From NCBI GenBank assembly GCA_022842905.1, contig JALHOS010000023.1:3637-36576 (forward strand): a stretch of DNA of 32,940 nucleotides. The letters run 5' to 3'. Within the stretch, counting starts at the first letter, position 1; each line of letters starts with the position of its first letter. Shown in pieces: positions 1-21,470 of this stretch. The position numbers were made by a program, and so were the translations under genes. The notes beneath the pieces are model-generated. The model had not been told where the DNA came from and made no database searches. It saw nothing but the letters and a program-made list of their open reading frames with translations. The stretch comes from Myxococcaceae bacterium. GTDB taxonomy: Bacteria; Myxococcota; Myxococcia; Myxococcales; Myxococcaceae.

Positions 1-645
1 GTGCTGTTCGAAGCCGACGCGTTCAACGTCGAGCGGGGCGGCACCAAGTGGGCCGAGCGGAGCAAAGAGCTTCCGGGGGGCGTCAAGCTGGAAGGCTCGG
101 TCGAAGGGCCCAAGTTCACGATGACCGGCGGCGCCTCGGGCTCCATCAGCACCAAGGGCCTCGACGTCGACGTGAACCTGAAGATCGACGCGAACCTGGT
201 CAGCGCCAGCGGCTCCGTCAGCAAGGAGTTCAAGTTCCAGGTCAACGGCGAAGAGGTCAAGCTCAAGCTCGACCTGTCGGCGAACGGGAACGTGGGCATC
301 AACGGAGAGCTGAACCTCAAGCTGCGCGTCGGCACCGACGGCACGCTCAGCGTGCAGCTCAACGGTGAAGGCTTCGCCGGCGCGCGCGGGGAGCTGAGCG
401 GCAACATCGAGCTGTCCGTCAACAACCAGGAGATCGCCAAGGGCACGCTGTCCGTCGGCGCGTCGATCGGCGCGGGCGCGGGCGCGTACGCGGAGGGCGG
501 GTACAAGGACGGGCAGCTGAAGTTCCGCGCAGGCGCCTACGCCTCCGTCGGCGCGGGCATCGGCACTGACGTGTCCGGCACGGTCAACGTGAAGAACCTG
601 GTGGGCCAGAGCTGGGGCCTGTTGATGCCCGGCACGCAGGGCTGA
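1..645 (+). CDS. Gly/Ala-rich beta-repeat protein, module copy 1 (5' truncated)
   Basis: I do not recognise a named family. The frame is open at the first base, and the paralogue at 2029-2823 has about 50 more N-terminal residues, so the start lies outside the window and the GTG at base 1 is probably internal. The visible 214 residues are alternating polar/hydrophobic strands of about ten residues separated by G/N/D turns, as expected for a beta-barrel, beta-solenoid or repetitive fibre. Blocks shared with the paralogue include EFKF.V.GEEV, GFAGARG.LSG and a C-terminal A.VGAGIG. No signal peptide, enzyme motif or toxin domain is visible. A TPR gene follows 54 bases after the stop, the same arrangement as in the two other copies. 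A secreted or self-assembling cargo is an inference from composition only. Confidence 0.8.
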   Translation: MLFEADAFNVERGGTKWAERSKELPGGVKLEGSVEGPKFTMTGGASGSISTKGLDVDVNLKIDANLVSASGSVSKEFKFQVNGEEVKLKLDLSANGNVGINGELNLKLRVGTDGTLSVQLNGEGFAGARGELSGNIELSVNNQEIAKGTLSVGASIGAGAGAYAEGGYKDGQLKFRAGAYASVGAGIGTDVSGTVNVKNLVGQSWGLLMPGTQG

Positions 646-699
646 GAACCGCGGTTTGAAGGTCCCGGCGGAGCGTGGCTTGAGGTAAACCCGGCCGCC

Positions 700-1866
700 A
701 TGTCCAGCAAGCACGCAACCGACGGCGCCGCGCTGATGCAGTCCGGCCTCCTCAAGGAAGCCCTGCAGGCGTTCGAAGCGGGAATCAAGGCTGACCCGAA
801 GGACCTGCCGTCGTGGCTGGGCATGGCCCGCGTGTCGATGTCGCAGCAGAACGAAGCCCAGGCGCGCCGCGCGTTTCAGGCGATCCTCAAGCTGTCGGCG
901 ACCCACCTCGAAGCGCAGTCGACGCTCGCGCTCTTGGACCTGCGCAAGGGCGACAAGACGGCGTTGGCTCGCCTCAAAGCGTGCGCCGCGGCGCCCGAGG
1001 CCGGCTTCTTCGAGCAGTACAACTTGGCGCAGGTGCTCCAGGACTCCGGCGACTTGAAGGGCGCGGGCCAGGCGCTCGAGCGGGCGAACAAGGCCGCGCC
1101 GAACAACCCCTACGTGATGATGGAGCTGGCCACGCTCGCGCTGCAGCAGGGCGACGCGCGTACGGCGGCCGAGACGGCGAAGAAGGTCTGCACGCTGGTG
1201 CCCCGCGAGTGGTTCCCCGAGCTCGTCGCCGCTCGCGCGCTGGTGAAGCTCGGGAGCCTGACCGAGGCGCTGATGCGGCTGGACGCGGCGAGCAAGCGCT
1301 TCCCCGAACAGCCGGCCCTGGCCCACGAGCTGTTCGACGTCGCCATGGTGCAGGGCAACTTCGCGGCGGCGCAGCGGGCGGCGATCGACCTGCGCCGCAT
1401 GAGCCCGACCGACGCGAACGCCGTCTACAAACACGCGCTCGTCTTCTTCACGCAGGGCAAGGTCGCCGACGCCAAGCCGCTGTTCGAAGACGCCCTGCGC
1501 AAGGCGCCCAAGGCCATCGAGCCGAAGCAGGGCCTGGCCAAGTGCCTCATGCTCGAGAAGAAGTACGACGACGCGCAGAAGCTGCTCGAAGAAGCCAACG
1601 CGCTCAACCCGACCGCGTCTGGACCGGCGAACGATCTGGCGACGCTGCTGCTCAAGAAGGACGACGGCGCGCGCGCGGTGAAGGTGCTGATCAAGGTCCA
1701 CGCCGCCGAGCCCGAGGACGACGCGACGAACTTGAACCTCGCGCTCGGGTACGCACAGCAGGGCCTCGCGCTGCAGGCCAAGCCGCACGTGCGCGCCGCG
1801 CTCAAGAGCGCTGACGCCGACATTCGCTCGCAGGCCGAGCGCCTCAAGGCCCGCGTCGGGGCGTGA
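700..1866 (+). CDS. TPR-repeat protein, partner of module copy 1
   Basis: This 388-residue protein is built almost entirely of about ten tetratricopeptide-like helical pairs (patterns such as GLLKEALQAFEAGIKADP near the N-terminus and YDDAQKLLEEANALNP near residue 300). There is no signal peptide or membrane segment, so it is expected to be cytosolic. The ATG at 700 follows a purine-rich TTGAGG stretch, and the repeats begin within ten residues of it. The C-terminal 60 residues (NLNLALGYA, then a helix with spaced Ala/His/Arg and a QAERLKARVG ending) match the ends of the TPR proteins at 2882-3562 and 16544-17731, which supports a common origin. It lies 54 bases downstream of the beta-repeat gene and is probably co-transcribed with it. 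A role as chaperone or adaptor of the upstream product is inferred; a general scaffold remains possible. Confidence 0.88.
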   Translation: MSSKHATDGAALMQSGLLKEALQAFEAGIKADPKDLPSWLGMARVSMSQQNEAQARRAFQAILKLSATHLEAQSTLALLDLRKGDKTALARLKACAAAPEAGFFEQYNLAQVLQDSGDLKGAGQALERANKAAPNNPYVMMELATLALQQGDARTAAETAKKVCTLVPREWFPELVAARALVKLGSLTEALMRLDAASKRFPEQPALAHELFDVAMVQGNFAAAQRAAIDLRRMSPTDANAVYKHALVFFTQGKVADAKPLFEDALRKAPKAIEPKQGLAKCLMLEKKYDDAQKLLEEANALNPTASGPANDLATLLLKKDDGARAVKVLIKVHAAEPEDDATNLNLALGYAQQGLALQAKPHVRAALKSADADIRSQAERLKARVGA

Positions 1867-1904
1867 CGAGCCGTCTCACCTTCGCAGGACGTGAGGATTC
1901 TCAG

Positions 1905-1955
1905 TCGCTCAAGTTGCTGGAATCACAAAACAAGTTTCCACAATTCCTTTGGGCG
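1905..1955 (+). promoter_or_regulatory. AT-rich leader upstream of module copy 2 (possible promoter)
   Basis: A stretch around 1911-1950 is markedly richer in A and T than anything nearby (runs such as AATCACAAAACAAG) and sits about 90 bases before the ATG at 2029, between two modules. This suggests the second module has its own promoter rather than reading through from the first. No convincing -35/-10 pair and no GG-N10-GC sigma-54 spacing was found. Confidence 0.25.
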
Positions 1956-2028
1956 GCTTCACGTCGGGGGCCGACAACTCGGGTGCAGCATCAGGCAGCT
2001 CCACCCACGCTCGGAAGCCCCCGCCCCC

Positions 2029-2823
2029 ATGTCTTCGACCAATCTGACGCCGGTCTCCTCCGGTCCGAACTCTTTCGACTTCGCTCGCTCGGGTCTGCGC
2101 ACGCGACGATTCGGCGACGAAGAGGGCTCGGCGCGCATGGAAGAGCAGCTCAAGCGCGCCAACGGCAGCCAGGGCGCGTTCCAGGAAGCGCTCTACACCG
2201 ACGACGTGGGCGTGGAGCTGTTCCGGCGTGAAGCGGAGCAGCGGGAGATCAAGCGCACCATTCGTGGCGTGGACGTGACGGGCACGGCCAGCGGGCCGTC
2301 GTTCCGTCTCGGTGGCACGGCGGGCTTCAAGCGCGTGGGCGCGCTGGGCGCGGAGATCGACATCAACCTGCAGGTGAAGGCCGAGGCCGGCCGCGCGGGC
2401 TTGTCGGCGAAGAAGGAGTTCAAGTTCACCGTCGGCGGCGAAGAGGTGTCGGTGAAGGTGGATCTGTCGGCGGAGGTGCTCGCCGGCATCAACGGCAACC
2501 TCAAGCTCAAGCTCTACGTCGGGAAGGACGGCGTGCGGCTCAATGCGGGCGGCGAAGGCTTCGCTGGCGCTCGCGGGACGCTCTCCGGCTCGCTGGCCGT
2601 CGACGTCAACGGCAAGAACGTGGCGCGCGGCAACCTGAAGGTGCAGGCGTTCGTCGGCGCCGCGGCGGGTGCGCAGCTCGACTGGTCGCTCAAGGAGTTC
2701 CGCGCAAAGGCGTACGCCGCGGTGGGCGCCGGCATCGGCGTCGAGCTGCACGGCGTGTGGGACCCGCAGCAGATCGTCAAGTCCAGCGCCGCCGTGGCCC
2801 TGCCCGGTCACCAGGGCTGGTGA
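2029..2823 (+). CDS. Gly/Ala-rich beta-repeat protein, module copy 2
   Basis: This is a complete 264-residue paralogue of the truncated protein at the left edge. The frame is open upstream of the ATG at 2029, but that upstream part crosses the AT-rich leader and reads as noncoding, so 2029 (MSSTNLTP) is preferred. Residues 1-75 are polar and partly helical (GSARMEEQLKRANG, then LFRREAEQREIKR) with no Sec signal. Residues 80-255 are alternating beta-type strands with EFKF.V.GEEV.VK.DLSA, GFAGARGTLSG and AAVGAGIGVELHGVWDPQQ near the end. The final DP motif corresponds to SYDPKDFGQ in the larger protein at 17747-19195, so all three share a C-terminal region. The next gene, a TPR protein, starts 58 bases later. 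Function is unknown; an export or assembly signal in the polar N-terminus is speculation. Confidence 0.85.
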   Translation: MSSTNLTPVSSGPNSFDFARSGLRTRRFGDEEGSARMEEQLKRANGSQGAFQEALYTDDVGVELFRREAEQREIKRTIRGVDVTGTASGPSFRLGGTAGFKRVGALGAEIDINLQVKAEAGRAGLSAKKEFKFTVGGEEVSVKVDLSAEVLAGINGNLKLKLYVGKDGVRLNAGGEGFAGARGTLSGSLAVDVNGKNVARGNLKVQAFVGAAAGAQLDWSLKEFRAKAYAAVGAGIGVELHGVWDPQQIVKSSAAVALPGHQGW

Positions 2824-2881
2824 CGGTCCGGACGTCTTCGGGCAGTGGCTGGGCCTGTGGCCGGCTGGTAAGCGAGCCGTC

Positions 2882-3562
2882 GTGACCGACCGTTCTTGGA
2901 GAGAGCTGCAGGCCGACGCCGACGCCCACCTGAAGAAGGGTGAGGTCGGCCGCGCGGCTCACACGCTGATCGCCGCCATCGAGCTGGCGCCGGACCAGCC
3001 GCAGCTCTACCAGCAGCTCGTCAAGGTCGCGCTCCTCGCCGGCGGAACGCAGACGGCCGTCGAGGCCGCCGCGCGCCTCGTCGCGCTGCAGGTGAACGAC
3101 CCCGACAGCCACTACCTGCACGCCGTCGCGAGCCTCGCGCACGGCAAGCCCGACGACGCCAAGGCTTCGCTCGAAGCGACCCTCGAGCTCGCGCCCAAGA
3201 GCTGGCAGGCGCGGCAGGCGCTGGCGCAGGTCTGCACGATCCTCAAAGAGGCGCCGCGTGCGCGGCAGCTGCTCGAAGAAGCGGTTCGCATCGCGCCGAC
3301 CGAGCCGGGTCCCGCGGCGGAACTTGCAGTGCTGCTGCTCGCGGCGGAAGACGCGGCGGGCGCGAAGGGAGTGCTCGAGCCGGCCGTCCGCGCCAACCCG
3401 TACGATGCGGGACTGCACCTCAACCTGGCCCTGGCGGCAGCGAAGCTGGGCGATCGCGCGCTCCAGACGTCGGCCGCGCAGACGGCGCTCACACACGCGA
3501 AGGATGATCGGTCGATCGCCGAGCAGGCGCAGCGGCTGCTCGAGCTGTCGCGACCGAGCTGA
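2882..3562 (+). CDS. TPR-repeat protein, partner of module copy 2
   Basis: This 226-residue protein has about five to six TPR-like helical hairpins (GEVGRAAHTLIAAIELAPD near residue 20; PDDAKASLEATLELAPKSWQ near residue 100) and no signal peptide. The frame is open further upstream but overlaps the preceding gene out of frame. The GTG at 2882 is chosen because it places VTDRSWRELQADADAHL directly before the first repeat, and it lies just after the upstream stop. The ending (LHLNLALAAAKLGD, then AEQAQRLLELSRPS) resembles the ends of the TPR proteins at 700-1866 and 16544-17731. It is much shorter than those two, as if several central repeats were lost. As in the other copies it follows a beta-repeat gene, so a dedicated binding partner is the simplest reading. 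Confidence 0.82.
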   Translation: MTDRSWRELQADADAHLKKGEVGRAAHTLIAAIELAPDQPQLYQQLVKVALLAGGTQTAVEAAARLVALQVNDPDSHYLHAVASLAHGKPDDAKASLEATLELAPKSWQARQALAQVCTILKEAPRARQLLEEAVRIAPTEPGPAAELAVLLLAAEDAAGAKGVLEPAVRANPYDAGLHLNLALAAAKLGDRALQTSAAQTALTHAKDDRSIAEQAQRLLELSRPS

Positions 3563-12844: not shown

Positions 12845-13183
12845 TCAGCGCAGCGCCGCGTAGTTCCGGAAGTTGTCGCGCAGGTCCACCGGGAGGCGCT
12901 TGGCTTCCATGCTGTTGAGGAAGCCGTCGCCGTTGACGTCGGCGCGCTGTGCGTGGACCGCCACGTAGTTGGTGAAGCGCTCGACGAACTTCGCCGCCGT
13001 CACCGCCTGGTTCTCCTGCGCGCCCCACCGGTGGTTCTCGAAGTTGTCCTTCAGATCGCGCGGCAGCGCCTGCGCTTCGGCCTTGGTGAGGAAGCTGTTC
13101 TTGTCGGCGTTTGCCCGGCTGACGTTGGCGCGGATGTACCCGGCGGACGAGCGAATGAAGTCGGCGGTCGAGACGATGGGCAT
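12845..13183 (-). CDS. Small two-EF-hand protein
   Basis: This 112-residue protein has two EF-hand loops: residues 25-36 (NADKNSFLTKAE, a variant starting with Asn and lacking the central Gly) and 82-93 (DVNGDGFLNSME, canonical D-x-N-x-D-G). Each loop is followed by the same sequence type (LPRDLKDNF and LPVDLRDNF), so the protein is an internal duplication. No signal peptide is seen; it is either cytosolic or exported by another route. A strong AAGGAG lies seven bases before the ATG at 13183. A TTGACA (- strand, 13250-13255) about 70 bases upstream could be a -35 box, but no good -10 is visible. It is likely a calcium-binding regulator or buffer; partners are unknown. A clean terminator follows, so it is probably monocistronic. 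Confidence 0.82.
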   Translation of the reverse strand: MPIVSTADFIRSSAGYIRANVSRANADKNSFLTKAEAQALPRDLKDNFENHRWGAQENQAVTAAKFVERFTNYVAVHAQRADVNGDGFLNSMEAKRLPVDLRDNFRNYAALR

Positions 13184-14339: not shown

Positions 14340-15332
14340 TCAGCGCAGGCCCAGCGCGCCGAGCTCCTGCCGCAGCGTCTGCTCGAGCTGGCGAATGGTG
14401 CCGTAGGCCAGGCAGCGGTGGCCCTTCACGTCGAAGCGCAGCTCGGCCACGTCGCGCACGAGCAGGATCGTCGGCACCTTCAGCCCCCAGGCGTAGCCGA
14501 CCTCGAGGTACACGTTCGGGTTGGCGCCGCTCAGCTCCGCGACGACGACCTTCGCCGAGGCGATGCGGGACAGAATGCGCTCGATGATGAGGCCCGAGAA
14601 GACGGTCTGGTCGACGCGCTCGCACAGCAGGCCCGCGTCGCGCAGCGGCAGCTGAATGCCGTAGTGGAAGACGTCTTCGAACTCCGGCGCGAACGGCATG
14701 GCGACGAAGGCGTGCGGCTTGTCCTGGGCCGACGTGCCGTAGCCCTGGAGCGACGGGCTCGGGGGCTTCGTCGCCGGGCGCTGAATCTGAAACGCGCCGT
14801 CCACCGCGCGCACGTCGCCGATGTCGACCAGCCGCTGCCGGAACGTGGCCTCGAGCCGCTTCGCGCGGCTGGTGCGCTTCTCGACGATGACGACGCGCTC
14901 GAGGCTCGCCGGCGCGGCGCCCCGCTGGATCGCGTCGATGAGGCCGCCTACCAACGCGAGGCCGGCCTCGTCTTCGTCGAGCCCACAGTTCGCCCCATGC
15001 ACGGTGATGCCCACGGTGCGAATCGGCGGGGTGCGCTGCGCCAGCGCTTCGAGCGCCTTGCCGGCGAGCAGGCGCACGTCCAGGTAGCCGAAGCCGGACA
15101 GCGGCACCGTGCCGACGAAGAGCACGCCGTTGGCGCCCAGCGTGCCTCGCGCGTCGACCCACGCCGACTTGCCGGGGAGCAGTTCGAACGTGCCCGGCAC
15201 GAAGCCAGACGCGCGCAGCCGCTCCGCGACCGCGCCGTCCGACGCATGGAAACTCTGCGCGTACTTCACCACCACCGCGTCGACGACCAGGTCCAGCAGG
15301 TCGCCCTGGAGGACTTCCAGCCTCACGCTCAT
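14340..15332 (-). CDS. Macro-like domain fused to nucleoside deoxyribosyltransferase/TIR-like domain
   Basis: This 330-residue soluble protein has two domains. Residues 1-165 resemble a macro fold as in the N-domain of leucyl aminopeptidases and conflict-system proteins (LEVLQGDLLDLVVDAVVV at the start, ITVHGANCGLDEDEAG near 110, LERVVIVE near 145). Residues 200-330 resemble the deoxyribosyltransferase/TIR-like fold: HAFVAMPF from 207, a GLIIERI helix, VVVAELSGANPNVYLEVGYA with Glu277 in the catalytic position, and PTILLV. Such folds cleave N-glycosidic bonds in nucleosides or NAD; macro folds bind ADP-ribose-type ligands. The ATG overlaps the astA stop by 4 bp, so the two are translationally coupled. 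A role in nucleotide metabolism or NAD-based defence is inferred, not shown. Confidence 0.72.
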   Translation of the reverse strand: MSVRLEVLQGDLLDLVVDAVVVKYAQSFHASDGAVAERLRASGFVPGTFELLPGKSAWVDARGTLGANGVLFVGTVPLSGFGYLDVRLLAGKALEALAQRTPPIRTVGITVHGANCGLDEDEAGLALVGGLIDAIQRGAAPASLERVVIVEKRTSRAKRLEATFRQRLVDIGDVRAVDGAFQIQRPATKPPSPSLQGYGTSAQDKPHAFVAMPFAPEFEDVFHYGIQLPLRDAGLLCERVDQTVFSGLIIERILSRIASAKVVVAELSGANPNVYLEVGYAWGLKVPTILLVRDVAELRFDVKGHRCLAYGTIRQLEQTLRQELGALGLR

Positions 15333-16354
15333 TCGAACGGCACCACGCTGACGCGCTCGCCGGGCTTCACCTTGAGCAGGTCCTTGGCCGGCTTGGGGAG
15401 GTACACCTCTTGGTCGTCGAAGCGCACCTGACAGCGCACCGCTCGGAAGCGGTTGTGGCCCGCGCCGCGCGAGACGGCCACCAAGGCGTCCTCCGCCTCT
15501 TGCTCGAGTGACTCCTTCTTGAGCGTCGCCGTGCGGTAGCGCCGCACCAGGGCGATGTCGTGGAGGTTGGCCTCGTAGTGGGGGCCGCCGTCGAACGGGT
15601 CGATGTGGTTGACGTACCGAAAGCCGATGCGCTCGAGCATGCGCTGCACGCCCTTGGTCTCGGGGCCGACCTCGCCGATGAGCTTCTGCGCGCGGTCGCT
15701 GAACAACGTCGCGTAAATGTCGGACGACGGGAACAGCTCCTTGATGAACTCCTTGTTCTGGCGCGACAGCTTGTCGGCCTCCGGGTACTCGAGGCCGGTG
15801 AACTTCTTGCCGCAGGACTCCCAGAGCAGGCTGCGGCCGTCCTCCATGAGCGGCGGGAGCAGCTCGGCGAGCACGCGCTCGCGGAAGAGCGGCTTGTGCA
15901 TGGCCATGAAGAGGAAGCGCACGTAGGACAGCTGCTTGCCTGGCTTGTCCGGGCCGCTGCGGTGCGGCGGATCGACGACGAGCCCGCCGATCTCCGTCGG
16001 CCCTTCGTAGTTGTACCCAATCGACAGCACCTTGTGCCGGAAGTGCGCGTCGATGCTCGCCGAGTAGTGCTCGGCTTCGGTGACCTGGAAGTAGATGTGC
16101 GGCGCGTCCTTGGTGCCGTGCTGGGCGATGATCATCGACGTGCCGATGATGAGCTCGTTGCGCAGGTCTTCGAGCACGAACAGGTATTCGCGCTCGTGCG
16201 GCGCCTCGAGCTTCCCGGCGAAGCTCTTCACCGACCGGTCGATGAGCTGCGCCAGCACCTTCTTGTCGTTCGGCAGGTTGACGCTGTTGAGCACGGCTGC
16301 CAGCCGCTGGAGCCCTGCCAGGTCGGACCTCGCTACGTCTCGCAGGAGCAACAT
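15329..16354 (-). CDS. astA: Arginine N-succinyltransferase
   Basis: This 341-residue protein is the usual length for AstA, which transfers succinyl from succinyl-CoA to arginine in the first step of the AST arginine-degradation pathway. Matching family blocks include LSYVRFLFMAM, FTGLEYPEADKLSRQNKEFI, LFPSSDIYATL, a QKLIGEVG segment and IDPFDGGPHYEA. The frame is open 20 codons further up, but starting at ATG 16354 (MLLLRDVARSDL) gives the conserved N-terminus. The other ast genes (astB, C, D, E) are not in this window. The stop overlaps the start of the macro/deoxyribosyltransferase-like gene, an unusual partner. The C-terminal residues (VYLPKPAKDLLKVKPGERV) look like a small AbrB-type tail typical of this group. 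Confidence 0.9.
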   Translation of the reverse strand: MLLLRDVARSDLAGLQRLAAVLNSVNLPNDKKVLAQLIDRSVKSFAGKLEAPHEREYLFVLEDLRNELIIGTSMIIAQHGTKDAPHIYFQVTEAEHYSASIDAHFRHKVLSIGYNYEGPTEIGGLVVDPPHRSGPDKPGKQLSYVRFLFMAMHKPLFRERVLAELLPPLMEDGRSLLWESCGKKFTGLEYPEADKLSRQNKEFIKELFPSSDIYATLFSDRAQKLIGEVGPETKGVQRMLERIGFRYVNHIDPFDGGPHYEANLHDIALVRRYRTATLKKESLEQEAEDALVAVSRGAGHNRFRAVRCQVRFDDQEVYLPKPAKDLLKVKPGERVSVVPFE

Positions 16355-16543
16355 GCGCCTTGCCTTAGACCAAGGCCGCGAAGGCGACCACCTTTCGCGG
16401 ACGTCCTGGGTCACGCCCCGTCGCTCGGGAGCGCAGTACGCGGCCCGATATCTCGTCGTCCTGACCTTCCGCCTCGGCTGCGGCGCTGGCAGCCACCACC
16501 CGTTCTCACCCGCGCCGCTCGGCCGCTCGACCGTCCCCCGCGC

Positions 16544-17731
16544 TCACCCAGCCACCTGCGCGACCAGCGCGAGCAGCGCGTCGCGTTGGCCACCGGCCGC
16601 GCGGGCGTGGCGCGCGTGGTGGCGGGCTTCCTCTTTTTGGCCCAGCTTCACGTGGGCGAGCGTCAGGTTGTAGCGGACGAGGTCCTGGTCCTCGCTGGGC
16701 GCCGCGGCGAGCGCTTCGTCGAGGAGCAATCGTGCCTCTCGCCAGCCCGAAGGCTGCTCTTGCTCGAGCAAGAGCACCGCCAAGTTCGTGCGGGCTCGCC
16801 AGTTGGTCTTCGACAGCCGGACGGCCTGACGGTACGCCCGCTCCGCGCCGACCTCGTGCCGCGCAGCTTCGTAGACGATGCCGAGCTGGAGGTAGGCCGC
16901 GTCGGACTTCGGGTCGAGCGCGAGCGCGCCCTTGGCGTGGGCGAGCGCCTGGGCCAGGTCTCCCTCGGTGGTGGCCAGCGCCGCCGCCAGCAGCCGCGTG
17001 TTGACGGTGCGTGGCAGGAGCTGCACCAGCCGCTCCGCCCACAGTCGCGCCGTCTGGGTCTGGTCTTGGCGAATGGCGACGGCCGCGCGCTTCTGGACGA
17101 GGAGCGCCGAGTCAGGGATGCGCTCGAGCGCGGCGTCGAACCACTTCGCGGCGAGGCTCAGCTGCTGCGCGTTGCACAGCAGGTCCCCCACCATGGCCGC
17201 GGCCACGTCCCAGCCCGGCGCCAGGCAGAACGCTTCGGTCGCGAGCTTGAGCGCGGTCGCGGCGATGCCGTTCGCGTCGGCGATGCGCGCCGCGGTCAAC
17301 CGAGCCCCGGCCGAGTCGGGCAACAGCCGCATCGCCCGCGCCGCGGCGGTGTGCGCTTCCGTCCAGCGGCCCTGCTGCGCGTACGCGCGCGCCAAGCTGA
17401 CGAAGCCCAAACCTTGTTCGGGGGCCATCGCCACGGCGGCCTCGTAGTGGGCGATGGCGACCTCGAACTCGCCTTTGGCTTCACACGCAATGCCCAGCAG
17501 GTGCCGCGCCTGCGCGACGTGGGGGTGCTGCGCGACGACGCGATCGAGCAGGCGCTTGGCGTCGTCCTGGCGCGCGAGCGCGAGGGCAATGCGGGCCAGG
17601 CCCATCGTCGGAAACGGTGACATGCGACCGTCCAGTGCTCGCGCGCGCTCGAACAGTTCGGCGGCGCGATCCAAGTCGTTGTCACCCAGGTAGCGTTCGG
17701 CCTCGTTGAGCAGCGGGAGGATCGTCTCCAT
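16544..17731 (-). CDS. TPR-repeat protein, partner of module copy 3
   Basis: This 395-residue protein is composed of about ten TPR-like helical pairs (DLDRAAELFERARALDG near residue 20, GEFEVAIAHYEAAVAMAP near 90, GDLAQALAHAKGALALDP near 270) with no signal peptide. The ATG at 17731 has a good GAGGAAGG upstream and lies only 15 bases after the stop of the beta-repeat gene, so the two are in one operon. The last 50 residues (VRYNLTLAHVKLGQ, an Ala/His/Arg helix) follow the same pattern as the TPR proteins at 700-1866 and 2882-3562. Length and order match copy 1 best. Dedicated binding of the upstream protein is an inference from threefold conserved linkage. Confidence 0.88.
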   Translation of the reverse strand: METILPLLNEAERYLGDNDLDRAAELFERARALDGRMSPFPTMGLARIALALARQDDAKRLLDRVVAQHPHVAQARHLLGIACEAKGEFEVAIAHYEAAVAMAPEQGLGFVSLARAYAQQGRWTEAHTAAARAMRLLPDSAGARLTAARIADANGIAATALKLATEAFCLAPGWDVAAAMVGDLLCNAQQLSLAAKWFDAALERIPDSALLVQKRAAVAIRQDQTQTARLWAERLVQLLPRTVNTRLLAAALATTEGDLAQALAHAKGALALDPKSDAAYLQLGIVYEAARHEVGAERAYRQAVRLSKTNWRARTNLAVLLLEQEQPSGWREARLLLDEALAAAPSEDQDLVRYNLTLAHVKLGQKEEARHHARHARAAGGQRDALLALVAQVAG

Positions 17732-17746
17732 GGCGTGCCTTCCTCT

Positions 17747-19195
17747 TCAGACCTTCACGGTGGTGCTGCCGCTGCGCGTCGTCGTCTTCCCCGCGCGCTT
17801 GCTGTCTTCACGCAGCGCGCGCGTCCGCTTGGCCGTCTCGTCGATGGAGTCGAGCAGCGCGGGTTCTCCCGTCGATTGGACGAAGCCCCCGGCGATCGAC
17901 GACTGCGGCGGCGCGGGTTGGTCCTTGGGGTCGCTCGCCGAATCGCTCACCGCGCCGTCGAGCACCTTCTGGGCGTGGGCTCCGTCCGCGCTCTTGCCGC
18001 CGAAGAGGCCGGGGACCATGCCAATGAGGCCCCACACGGGGTTGGCGGTGAGCGCGAGCCCCAGCATGGTCAGCGCGCCGACCGCGACCTGGCCGAAGTC
18101 CTTCGGGTCGTAGGACTGCGTGCTGCCCATTTGCAGGCCGACGCCTAGGCACAGCGACAGGCTCCACTCGATCTTCAAGATGCCCGCCTCATCGAAGCCG
18201 ATCTTGAAGCTCGCCTCGGCGCCGACGCCCGCGAGGGCCGCCACGGTGGTCGTGTTCTTCGCGCCGAGCACGTCGCTGCTCGCTCTGGCGGCGGCGCGGG
18301 CGCCGGCGAAGGCGCCAGCACCACCCGAGACGATGGCCTTGGCGGGGACGATCGACAGCGCTGCTTCGACGTCCGCGTCCGCGCCGCAGCCGGACTCCGC
18401 GGTGGCCTTCGCGTCCAACGCGATGCCACCGACGACGTTGCCGCCGGCGTACGCGTCCGCGGTAGCCATGGCACCGGTCGACGCGCTCGCGCGCCCGGAG
18501 CCGCCGAGGACGTGCACTTGCCCCGCCGCTTCCGCCTGGGCCCACACCGCCGCGGCGCCCTTCACGCCCGCATACGCGCTGCCCATGGGCGTCTCGCACT
18601 TCACTTTCGCGCCTCCGGACACGCCCGCGCGCGCCCCGGCCTTGACCTGACCCGAAGCCTGGCCGCCACCGACGCTCGATTCACTCGTCGCGTACGCTTC
18701 TGCCGTCGCTTGGGCCGCCGCCTCGGCGCTCGCCGCGAAGCCACCCTCCCGCGCTTCGGCCTTGACGTGTCCGAGCGAGGTCGTGCCGCCCACCCGCTCA
18801 CCGCCTCGCTGCACGTCGGTCTTCGCCGTGCCGTCCGCTTTCCATTGGCCCGGAGGCGCTCCGACGGAGCCCATCGCGCTGCTCAGGTCCAGCGCATCGA
18901 AGGTCAACGAGTCGATGACGTGACCGATGTCGACGAGCAGCTTTCCAAGGTCGAGCCCCTCGGCCTGTGCGCCGTGAGACTGCTGGGCAGCGCTCACGCC
19001 GCTTCCCAGCAGGTTGGTGAACAGCTGACCGAGCGCCTGCCCGAGGTCCGGCGCCTGCTTCGGCGCGGCGCCATGATGGCGCTCGACGTCGTTCGTGCGT
19101 CGCGGCGCGGCGGGCGCGCGCTCGGTTGGCTGTGGATCGTCCGCTTCGATGGGCCGAGCTGCCTGTGTGGCGCCGGTTGCTTGAACGCTGGTCAT
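17747..19195 (-). CDS. Large Ala/Gly-rich repetitive protein, module copy 3
   Basis: This 482-residue protein is of unknown function. The ATG at 19195 is chosen over an earlier in-frame start because it follows GGGAGGCGAC, an excellent ribosome site. Residues 1-60 are polar and disordered-looking with many Pro, Glu and Gln. Residues 60-100 form an amphipathic helical region (LGQALGQLFTNLLGSG, LLVDIGHVIDSL). Residues 110-345 are an Ala/Gly/Ser-rich stretch with alternating pattern and FAGAR, as in the smaller paralogues. Then come CLGVGLQMG and SYDPKDFGQ, matching the end of copy 2, a hydrophobic stretch about 372-395 (LTMLGLALTANPVWGLIG) and a polar tail. There is no Sec signal. The composition recalls shafts of polymorphic toxins or exported fibres, but no toxin domain is seen. 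Confidence 0.85.
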   Translation of the reverse strand: MTSVQATGATQAARPIEADDPQPTERAPAAPRRTNDVERHHGAAPKQAPDLGQALGQLFTNLLGSGVSAAQQSHGAQAEGLDLGKLLVDIGHVIDSLTFDALDLSSAMGSVGAPPGQWKADGTAKTDVQRGGERVGGTTSLGHVKAEAREGGFAASAEAAAQATAEAYATSESSVGGGQASGQVKAGARAGVSGGAKVKCETPMGSAYAGVKGAAAVWAQAEAAGQVHVLGGSGRASASTGAMATADAYAGGNVVGGIALDAKATAESGCGADADVEAALSIVPAKAIVSGGAGAFAGARAAARASSDVLGAKNTTTVAALAGVGAEASFKIGFDEAGILKIEWSLSLCLGVGLQMGSTQSYDPKDFGQVAVGALTMLGLALTANPVWGLIGMVPGLFGGKSADGAHAQKVLDGAVSDSASDPKDQPAPPQSSIAGGFVQSTGEPALLDSIDETAKRTRALREDSKRAGKTTTRSGSTTVKV

Positions 19196-19445: not shown

Positions 19446-21470
19446 ATGCGCTTGCTCACGCTGTCTGCCCTCCTCGTCGCGTCCGTCGCCTCCGCCGACG
19501 AGGGCATGTGGCTGTTCAACGACTTCCCCACCGCGCAGGCCAAGCAGAGCGTCGGCGTCGCGCCTGACGCGGCGTGGCTCGACCGCGTGCGCCTGGGCTC
19601 CCTGCGCTTGGCGAACGGGTGCTCGGCGAGCCTGGTCAGCGCGGACGGGCTGGTGATGACGAACCACCACTGCATTCGCGGGTGCCTCGAAGACCTGTCC
19701 ACGCCCGAGCGCGACCTGCTCAGCACGCCCTTCATCGCCAAGGACCGCGCCGCCGAAGAGCGCTGCCAGAAGACCGAGGCGAACCAGTTGGTCCGCATCA
19801 CCGACGTCACTGAGCGGGTGCTCGAGGCGACGCAGGGCAGCAGCGGCGCCGACTACCAGAAGAAGCTCAAGGCGGAGCAGGCTCGGCTCGAGTCTGGCTG
19901 CGCCCAGGGCGACGCGACCAAGCGCTGCGACGTCGTCACGCTCTTCCACGGCGCGAAGTTCCACCTGTACGAGTACCGGCGGTACCAAGACGTGCGCCTC
20001 GTCTTCGCGCCCGAATTCTCCATGGCAGCCTTCGGCGGCGACCCCGACAACTTCAACTTCCCGCGCTACGGCCTCGACGTGGCGTTCCTGCGCCTCTACG
20101 TGGACGGGAAGCCCCGGCCGTCTCCCGAGCGGCTGGCGTGGGCGAAGGAGCCGGCGAAGGAGAAGGACCCCGTCTTCGTCAGCGGGCACCCGGGCAACAC
20201 CGATCGTCTTCTGACGGTGGCGCAGCTCGAGTACCAGCGCGACGTCGCGCTGCCGTACAGCATCGCGTTGCTCAGCGAGCTCCGCGGTCGCCTCGACGAA
20301 TGGCTCAAGGCCCACCCAGCGCTCGGGAACGTCGGCCGTTCGAGGCTTCGCTCGGTGGAGAACTCACTCAAGGCCCAGCGTGGCGCCCAGCAGGCGCTGG
20401 CGGAGCCCAGCTTCTTCGCCAAGCTCGTCAGCGCCGAGGTCGAGCTCAAGCGCAAGGCGCCTGCTTCGACGCTGGCCGGCTGGGACTCGATCGCCGAGGC
20501 GACCAAGGCGCTGCGGGGGCTCGCGCTGGAGTACCGCTTGAAGGAGCGGGGCGACGCGTTCAACAGCGAGCTGTTCGGCCACGCCCGCGCGCTGGTGCGG
20601 CACCGCGCCGAGAAGGCCAAGCCGAACGCCGAGCGGCTGCCGGAGTTCACCGACGCGCGGCTGCCGGGCCTCACCCAGTCGCTCGGAAGCCAGGTGCCGG
20701 TGAGCAAAGAGCTGGAGATCGCCACGCTGAGCTGGTCGTTGCAGCGGCTGCGCGAAGCCTTGGGCGCGGACGACGCGTTCGTGCGCTCGGTGTTGGGGAG
20801 CGCCACGCCGCTCGAGGTTGCCACGCAGCTCGTCGAAGGCACGGGGCTGGCTGACGCCAAGCGACGGCTCGAGCTGCTCGACGAGAAGGCGTTCGACGCG
20901 GCCACCGATCCGCTGCTGGCCTTCGCGAAGAAGGTCGACGCCGACGCCCGCGCCATTCGCCAGAAGGTCGAAGCGCAGGTCGACGCGCCGCAGAAGAAGG
21001 GCAATGAGCTGCTGGCCGAAGCGCGGCGCACGGTGCTGGGGCCCGTCGGCGCGCCGGACGCGACGTTCACGCTGCGGCTGTCCTTCGGGCGAGTGCAGGG
21101 GACGGCGACCGCTCCGGCCATGACGACGGTCGAAGGCCTCTTCACCCGTGCGACGGGGAAAGCGCCCTTCGCGCTGACCGAGCCGTGGCTCAAGGTGAAG
21201 CCGTCGCTCAAGGCCGCGGAGCTCAAGCTGCCGTACAACGTCAGCACGACGAACGACATCATCGGAGGCAACTCGGGCTCGCCACTCGTGAACGCCAAGG
21301 GCGACGTCGTCGGGCTGGTCTTCGACGGGAACTTGGCGTCGCTCGGTGGCCGCTACGGGTACGAGCCCGCCAGCAACCGGGCCGTCGCCGTTCACGGCGA
21401 GCTCATTCAGTTCGCGCTGATGCGGGTGTACGGGGCGAAGCACCTCGCGGAGGAGTTGCTGCGGCGGTGA
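19446..21470 (+). CDS. S46 family dipeptidyl-peptidase (DPP7-like)
   Basis: This 674-residue protein has a signal peptide (MRLLTLSALLVASVASA), so it acts in the periplasm or outside. The S46 catalytic triad is visible: His75 in TNHHC, Asp201 in GGDPDNFNFPRY and Ser610 in GGNSGSP. The residue 18 positions after the serine, which sets P1 preference in this family (Arg in acidic-specific DPP11), is Gly in VFDGN, which points to the DPP7 type with hydrophobic P1 preference. It releases dipeptides from peptide N-termini, fitting with the dipeptide/amino-acid economy suggested by the neighbouring importer and peptidases. The helical cap (about 280-500) is present, so the protein appears complete. 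It is transcribed divergently from the module copy 3 operon across 250 bases. Confidence 0.92.
   Translation: MRLLTLSALLVASVASADEGMWLFNDFPTAQAKQSVGVAPDAAWLDRVRLGSLRLANGCSASLVSADGLVMTNHHCIRGCLEDLSTPERDLLSTPFIAKDRAAEERCQKTEANQLVRITDVTERVLEATQGSSGADYQKKLKAEQARLESGCAQGDATKRCDVVTLFHGAKFHLYEYRRYQDVRLVFAPEFSMAAFGGDPDNFNFPRYGLDVAFLRLYVDGKPRPSPERLAWAKEPAKEKDPVFVSGHPGNTDRLLTVAQLEYQRDVALPYSIALLSELRGRLDEWLKAHPALGNVGRSRLRSVENSLKAQRGAQQALAEPSFFAKLVSAEVELKRKAPASTLAGWDSIAEATKALRGLALEYRLKERGDAFNSELFGHARALVRHRAEKAKPNAERLPEFTDARLPGLTQSLGSQVPVSKELEIATLSWSLQRLREALGADDAFVRSVLGSATPLEVATQLVEGTGLADAKRRLELLDEKAFDAATDPLLAFAKKVDADARAIRQKVEAQVDAPQKKGNELLAEARRTVLGPVGAPDATFTLRLSFGRVQGTATAPAMTTVEGLFTRATGKAPFALTEPWLKVKPSLKAAELKLPYNVSTTNDIIGGNSGSPLVNAKGDVVGLVFDGNLASLGGRYGYEPASNRAVAVHGELIQFALMRVYGAKHLAEELLRR

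Follow-up and report, generated by a model that had tools for sequence, protein, structure and literature searches.

The analysed stretch (hereafter the window) is 32,940 nucleotides long and covers positions 3637-36576 of contig C23 in the 7.85 Mb draft genome of a Myxococcaceae bacterium. It carries on its reverse strand an Ala/Gly-rich protein gene followed by a TPR protein gene. The Ala/Gly-rich partner is called 'cargo' here, as a label only.

17747-19195 (-): 482-aa Ala/Gly-rich cargo, subfamily B, ATG start (ORF, third-position GC, AlphaFold2 model, orthologues)
17732-17746 (-): 15 bp intergenic gap with GAAGAGGAAGG, ribosome-binding-like, ahead of the TPR start
16544-17731 (-): 395-aa TPR protein, ATG start, partner of the cargo and its proposed chaperone (ORF, Pfam, TPR tree)

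Coordinates, order, strand and gap had been given exactly in the initial annotation of this DNA. Both ORFs are supported as genes by their third-position GC (0.86 and 0.89). The 395-aa product is a TPR protein beyond doubt (Pfam TPR_19, E 1e-22, with several Pfam TPR models above cut-off), and the matches cover most of its length. It carries no evident signal peptide; likewise, no signal-like N-terminus was evident on reading the cargo sequence. The divergent neighbour of the cargo gene encodes an S46-type peptidase (19446-21470, annotated by reading the sequence). Directly downstream of the TPR gene lies AstA, an arginine N-succinyltransferase (15329-16414 (-), E 2e-103).

Two further pairs, on the forward strand, occupy the left end of the window:

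1-645 (+): copy 1 cargo, subfamily A, 5′ end missing
700-1866 (+): 388-aa TPR protein, partner of copy 1
2029-2823 (+): copy 2 cargo, subfamily A, 264 aa from ATG
2882-3562 (+): 226-aa TPR protein behind copy 2

A run of N just upstream of window position 1 (about 3625-3636 in L002; G000:C23) is a scaffold gap, which truncates copy 1. The initial annotation had regarded these genes as tandem copies. They are not two equal modules: the 226-aa TPR protein is closer to the second TPR gene of a relative, L017 (68% identity over 88 residues), than to the 388-aa TPR protein. In L017 that second TPR gene stands directly behind the long one, and insertion of a second cargo between two TPR genes is the most likely history of copies 1 and 2. 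A fourth cargo, again followed by a TPR gene, is present on contig C39 of the same genome.

Searches of Pfam, NCBIfam and PHROGs with the 482-aa cargo and with copy 2 assigned no family, copy 2 giving a single sub-threshold Pfam match; a PDB sequence search returned no meaningful match, and no phage record with the 482-aa protein was found. The 482-aa protein had been proposed to be a third, diverged copy of the pairs at the left end, on account of its FAGAR motif and a C-terminus resembling that of copy 2. In pairwise comparison this similarity is invisible (BLASTP against copy 2, E 0.14), such comparisons of cargos being uninformative because of their biased composition. Profile-profile alignment of the orthologues of each side recovered it over 88 columns, from FAGAR to the last strand (95.7%, E 9.8e-9), with a score of 70, to be read against a score of 73 for the reversed A1 (B) profile aligned to A1 itself. 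Column shuffles reached at most 18, shuffles of 6-column blocks at most 43 and reversed A2 44. The Ala/Gly-biased composition therefore makes the E-value overstate the match, and the reversed-A1 score means that the profile score by itself is not proof of homology. Subfamily D, as an intermediate, links A and B independently of this direct score: with scores of 21.7-37 bits its profile retrieved 10 of the 12 A proteins, and B proteins matched it at 17-77 bits, the decoy maximum being 18 in both cases. Backed by the intermediate subfamilies, by two structure models, by the conserved gene order and by matching trees (below), the 482-aa protein is confirmed to be homologous to the pairs at 1-3562, though divergent, and the C-terminal resemblance that had been noticed is real. 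With a homologous C-terminal beta-domain, subject to the composition caveat, and a same-strand TPR gene after the cargo, the window pair belongs to the cargo-TPR family. It is not, however, a local copy. B did not arise as a recent third copy but is an ancient paralogous subfamily, whose orthologues occur in other genera; A and B pairs are not kept close together in the relatives examined, and in other genomes they lie on different contigs.

The structure models extend this comparison. AlphaFold2 predicts for the 482-aa cargo (29-sequence alignment, pTM 0.46) a beta-meander of nine consecutive strands spanning residues 137-362, eight of 23-24 residues and the first (137-150) of 14. The pLDDT is about 90 over residues 140-250 and about 80 over 250-360, and is low over most of both ends, including the N-terminus (1-135). 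The model of copy 2, made from two sequences only, has long strands at 107-135, 138-165, 168-193, 196-219 and 224-244, with pLDDT of about 70-75 and of 62 for the last strand. FAGAR (at about 296-300 in the 482-aa cargo) lies on the third-last strand of each model, and the same long-strand beta-meander is predicted for the two proteins. Most of the nine strands, the last excepted, present Ala/Gly/Val on one face and mixed polar residues on the opposite one. Foldseek against PDB and viral structures found nothing at E≤0.001 (best E 2e-3, TM about 0.1). Using VIA-align, the best Z values (8-11) were to outer-membrane beta-barrels and autotransporter translocators, with rmsd mostly of 6-20 Å. Such proteins share with the cargo the up-and-down arrangement of long beta-strands; the cargo appears to differ from outer-membrane barrels by the lack of an evident signal peptide and by its Ala/Gly face opposed to a mixed polar one. 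These barrel matches, and others to apolipoprotein B, at high rmsd, were taken as generic up-down sheets. Behind the meander of the 482-aa cargo comes a hydrophobic, Gly-rich and partly helical tail (364-420), in which the region of about 370-398 is moderately hydrophobic (maximum 19-residue mean 1.5). This stretch, in a low-confidence part of the model, is the one feature that makes membrane activity of the 482-aa cargo plausible.

With the 482-aa protein as a single-sequence query, homologues turned up in 8 of 60 genomes, one of which is the genome of the window. Among 195 genomes of the phylum, 84 were matched by the B profile and 50 by the A profile, counts that take in other subfamilies within reach of each profile. 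By size and profile the cargos were divided into subfamilies, which bears out the diversified family with different cargo lengths that had been supposed:

Subfamily A: about 260-400 aa
Subfamily B: about 410-540 aa
Subfamily C: mostly about 550-630 aa
Subfamily D: about 310-410 aa
Subfamily E: single member, LysM N-terminus

The E cargo (L125:339-3222), from another family of the phylum, has LysM above the Pfam cut-off, then the beta-domain, and is followed by a TPR gene. A TPR gene lies directly downstream on the same strand for 66 of the 77 cargo genes detected in fetched loci, a set that includes overlapping fetches of one place and does not amount to 77 independent loci. Some of the misses are gene-call artefacts, as for copy 2, where an overlapping frame was chosen by the caller. 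Others are A-type cargos without a TPR gene, flanked by nuoG and nuoC (L015, L016, L055, L056, L059 and L060; annotated by reading).

Trees of the two partners, computed for 35 cargo-TPR pairs, agree in their subfamily splits, which is the comparison that the initial annotation had called for. In the TPR tree A, B, C and D each form one side of a branch (support 98-100); in the cargo tree A, B and C are each separated and the lone E falls inside D, on long branches. In both trees only 4 label changes, the minimum possible, are needed to split A, B, C and D/E, a value reached by 0 of 200 shuffles, and the window's B pair sits on a long branch in each. The cargo-TPR pairing is real and conserved, and both partners have co-diversified. 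That the pairs are a compositional coincidence, i.e. unrelated Ala/Gly-rich proteins lying near common TPR genes, could appeal to the inflation of profile scores by biased composition that reversed A1 illustrates, but it is already contradicted by the pairing frequency, the congruent trees, the same strand register and scores well over shuffled decoys, and its probability is next to nil. Tight gene pairing would also be expected of a toxin and its immunity protein or antitoxin, where the TPR protein would neutralise a pore-forming hydrophobic tail, and subfamily B does carry a hydrophobic Gly-rich segment after its beta-domain. The cargos that were read have, however, no variable toxin domains, most A, B and D members ending soon after the beta-domain, and cargo and TPR protein co-diverge across ancient subfamilies with no polymorphic tips; we regard such a pair as highly improbable.

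Among known systems, the YopD-SycD type of translocator and class II chaperone is like the cargo pair in placing a hydrophobic or aggregation-prone substrate, devoid of an evident Sec signal, beside a dedicated TPR protein, and a further likeness to type III translocators may lie in the type III-like neighbours found at related cargo loci. The differences are that the TPR partner here is about 390 aa long and encoded downstream of the cargo, and that the cargo is predicted to fold as a long-strand beta-meander where these translocators are helical, and shows no sequence match to them. Class II chaperones (SycD/LcrH-like) have roughly 3 TPR repeats. The 395-aa partner is far longer, which counts against reading the pair as substrate and chaperone, as do the A cargos at nuoG/nuoC that have no TPR gene. 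Going by the pairing and by what TPR chaperones generally do, the TPR protein quite probably binds and protects the cargo. In the explanation that we favour, each pair would consist of a substrate and its own dedicated TPR chaperone. The cargo, with its loose N-terminus, its long-strand Ala/Gly beta-meander and, in subfamily B, its hydrophobic tail, would be prone to aggregate and has no evident Sec signal; the TPR protein would bind it in the cytoplasm, keep it competent for export and hand it over to an export machine.

A clue to export comes from outside the myxobacteria. A B-profile scan of named genomes returned myxobacterial MAGs and actinobacteria (Amycolatopsis, Streptomyces, Kutzneria, Prauserella, Herbiconiux and others), and plasmid records contained one relative, on a Streptomyces plasmid, with the actinobacterial domain. 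In three of the four actinobacterial proteins scanned the N-terminus is a T7SS_signal domain (PF21725, E 1e-27 to 1e-32), the remaining one having a WXG100-like N-terminus below the curated cut-off; the C-terminus of these type VII-signal proteins is the same beta-domain as that of the cargos. A profile built solely from the actinobacterial domains scored 34-102 bits against the B, C, D and E cargos of myxobacteria, where decoys reached at most 26; A cargos, at up to 32 bits, overlapped the decoys. The actinobacterial PF21725/WXG100 proteins are thus akin to the cargos in their C-terminal Ala/Gly FAGA(R/K) domain and unlike the cargo-TPR pairs in N-terminal signal domain, machine and downstream genes: Pfam and NCBIfam detected no T7SS_signal or WXG100 domain in the 482-aa protein, and no adjacent TPR gene was seen at the actinobacterial loci read. 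EccB is present in 4 of 5 of these actinobacterial genomes and in 0 of 60 relatives of the window, so that myxobacterial export would need another machine. Since the beta-domain is a T7SS-type passenger in actinobacteria, it is not tied to a single machine.

These type VII relatives, together with the needle-like tails described below, make export of the cargo likely. If instead TPR and beta-meander proteins built a cytoplasmic structural complex with no export, the want of an evident signal peptide on either partner would be expected, both being cytoplasmic by default; the secretion signals of the actinobacterial relatives and the needle-like tails on one cargo and on neighbours argue against such an intracellular scaffold, which we consider improbable.

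The needle-like tails were found at related B loci, where the divergent neighbour of the cargo ends in ...MQSNLSKMFSEMASSAIRNMR or close variants:

L110:3214-4224: divergent neighbour of a B cargo, needle-like tail
L117:3062-4396: divergent neighbour of a B cargo, needle-like tail
L118:3143-4342: divergent neighbour of a B cargo, needle-like tail
L085:3283-4383: divergent neighbour of a B cargo, needle-like tail

Besides the C-terminal tail, these Ser/Thr/Pro/Gly-rich neighbours have an EF-hand-like acidic segment; that of L110 has a weak NolX match (0.0076). Among 60 genomes, two have T3SS_needle_F matches above the curated cut-off and others weaker ones; the C-termini of these myxobacterial proteins resemble the tails. 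A profile of the T3SS_needle_F-matching tails hit the B-locus divergent neighbours at E 1e-5 to 0.13 and, with hmmsearch, residues 570-630 of a subfamily-C cargo (genome G159, L126) at 2.6e-9; this cargo too is followed by a TPR gene. With hhalign, the B-locus neighbour tails aligned to needle/rod-like ones (94%, E 1e-7, score 40; shuffles at most 18) and the C cargo tail did so at E 8e-10. Pfam matched the C cargo tail weakly (E 0.39) and gave no match for the one B-locus neighbour tail tested. On contig C14 of the window's own genome, sctV adjoins short TPR genes that flank a needle-like protein (L147:4868-5527; PF09392, E 1e-5, just under cut-off). The needle-like proteins would be homologues either of the needle (SctF) or of the inner rod (SctI). 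At myxobacterial T3SS loci of the kind reported as needleless (L147, L132, L133), TPR chaperone genes adjoin genes for proteins whose C-terminus is needle/rod-like (PF09392) and whose length is about 220-290 aa.

The Myxococcus T3SS* belongs to the same bacterial family as the window. Its cluster is described as encoding SctI and several LcrH-type TPR chaperone homologues but no needle, and no effector is known for it (PMC10433427). SctF was not found in an earlier survey of such systems (PMC3459982). What T3SS* exports in contact-dependent predation is reported as unknown (PMC10433427, PMC12075869). Published descriptions of T3SS* include no substrates, needle or translocon, and the cargo-TPR pairs are located outside the sct cluster. 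According to the explanation that we favour, the export machine in Myxococcaceae would most likely be a non-flagellar type III system, this 'needleless' T3SS*, and the exported beta-domain would work in the periplasm, on the cell surface or where prey is contacted. FHIPEP was found in 82 of 84 genomes with the A1 (B) profile versus 80 of 111 without it, a difference confounded by phylogeny; as FHIPEP is nearly universal in the family, co-occurrence discriminates poorly. Several observations count against the T3SS* route. At the B locus of the window there is no adjacent type III gene, only one cargo was seen to carry a needle-like tail, and FHIPEP was not detected in the genome of the E cargo, an 82%-complete MAG. 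T3SS* is moreover reported to have no secretin, which bears on the outer-membrane step. In view of the first three, we propose T3SS* as the route only tentatively. The explanation as a whole, in which the cargo would be exported independently of Sec with a dedicated TPR chaperone for each and probably via T3SS*, is held with the same reserve.

The chaperone-substrate logic could also be kept with another exit, by Tad/Kil, T6SS or an unknown route needing no signal, or with the cargo delivered to the envelope of the producing cell. This would suit a beta-domain that rides on T7SS-type proteins in actinobacteria, a LysM variant suggestive of peptidoglycan contact and a window locus free of type III neighbours, but for subfamilies B and C the needle-like tails speak for type III, and we judge these other routes unlikely, if less so than the scaffold.

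Substrate-chaperone pairs are already known; what is new here is that the TPR partner is long and that an unclassified beta-domain serves in two secretion worlds. Literature searches, with subscription journals largely outside their coverage, returned no description of the cargo-TPR pairing. Absent from the family libraries searched, yet common to myxobacteria and actinobacteria behind different N-termini, the beta-domain would be a new secretion passenger domain. It is a more speculative step, and one we think rather doubtful, that the pairs represent an undescribed class of secretion substrates with matched long-TPR chaperones, built around a mobile beta-domain that serves type VII secretion in actinobacteria and T3SS* in predatory myxobacteria. 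If this were true, the 'needleless' killing machine would find among them its missing substrates or a surface-delivery element, and the pairs could have a role in predation. A conserved family of probable substrate-chaperone pairs, present in several copies and with type III-like neighbours, offers a short gene list for the question of T3SS* export.

Rfam and tRNA scans of the window returned nothing. A 112-aa protein encoded at 12845-13183 (-) gives weak EF-hand/dockerin-like matches.
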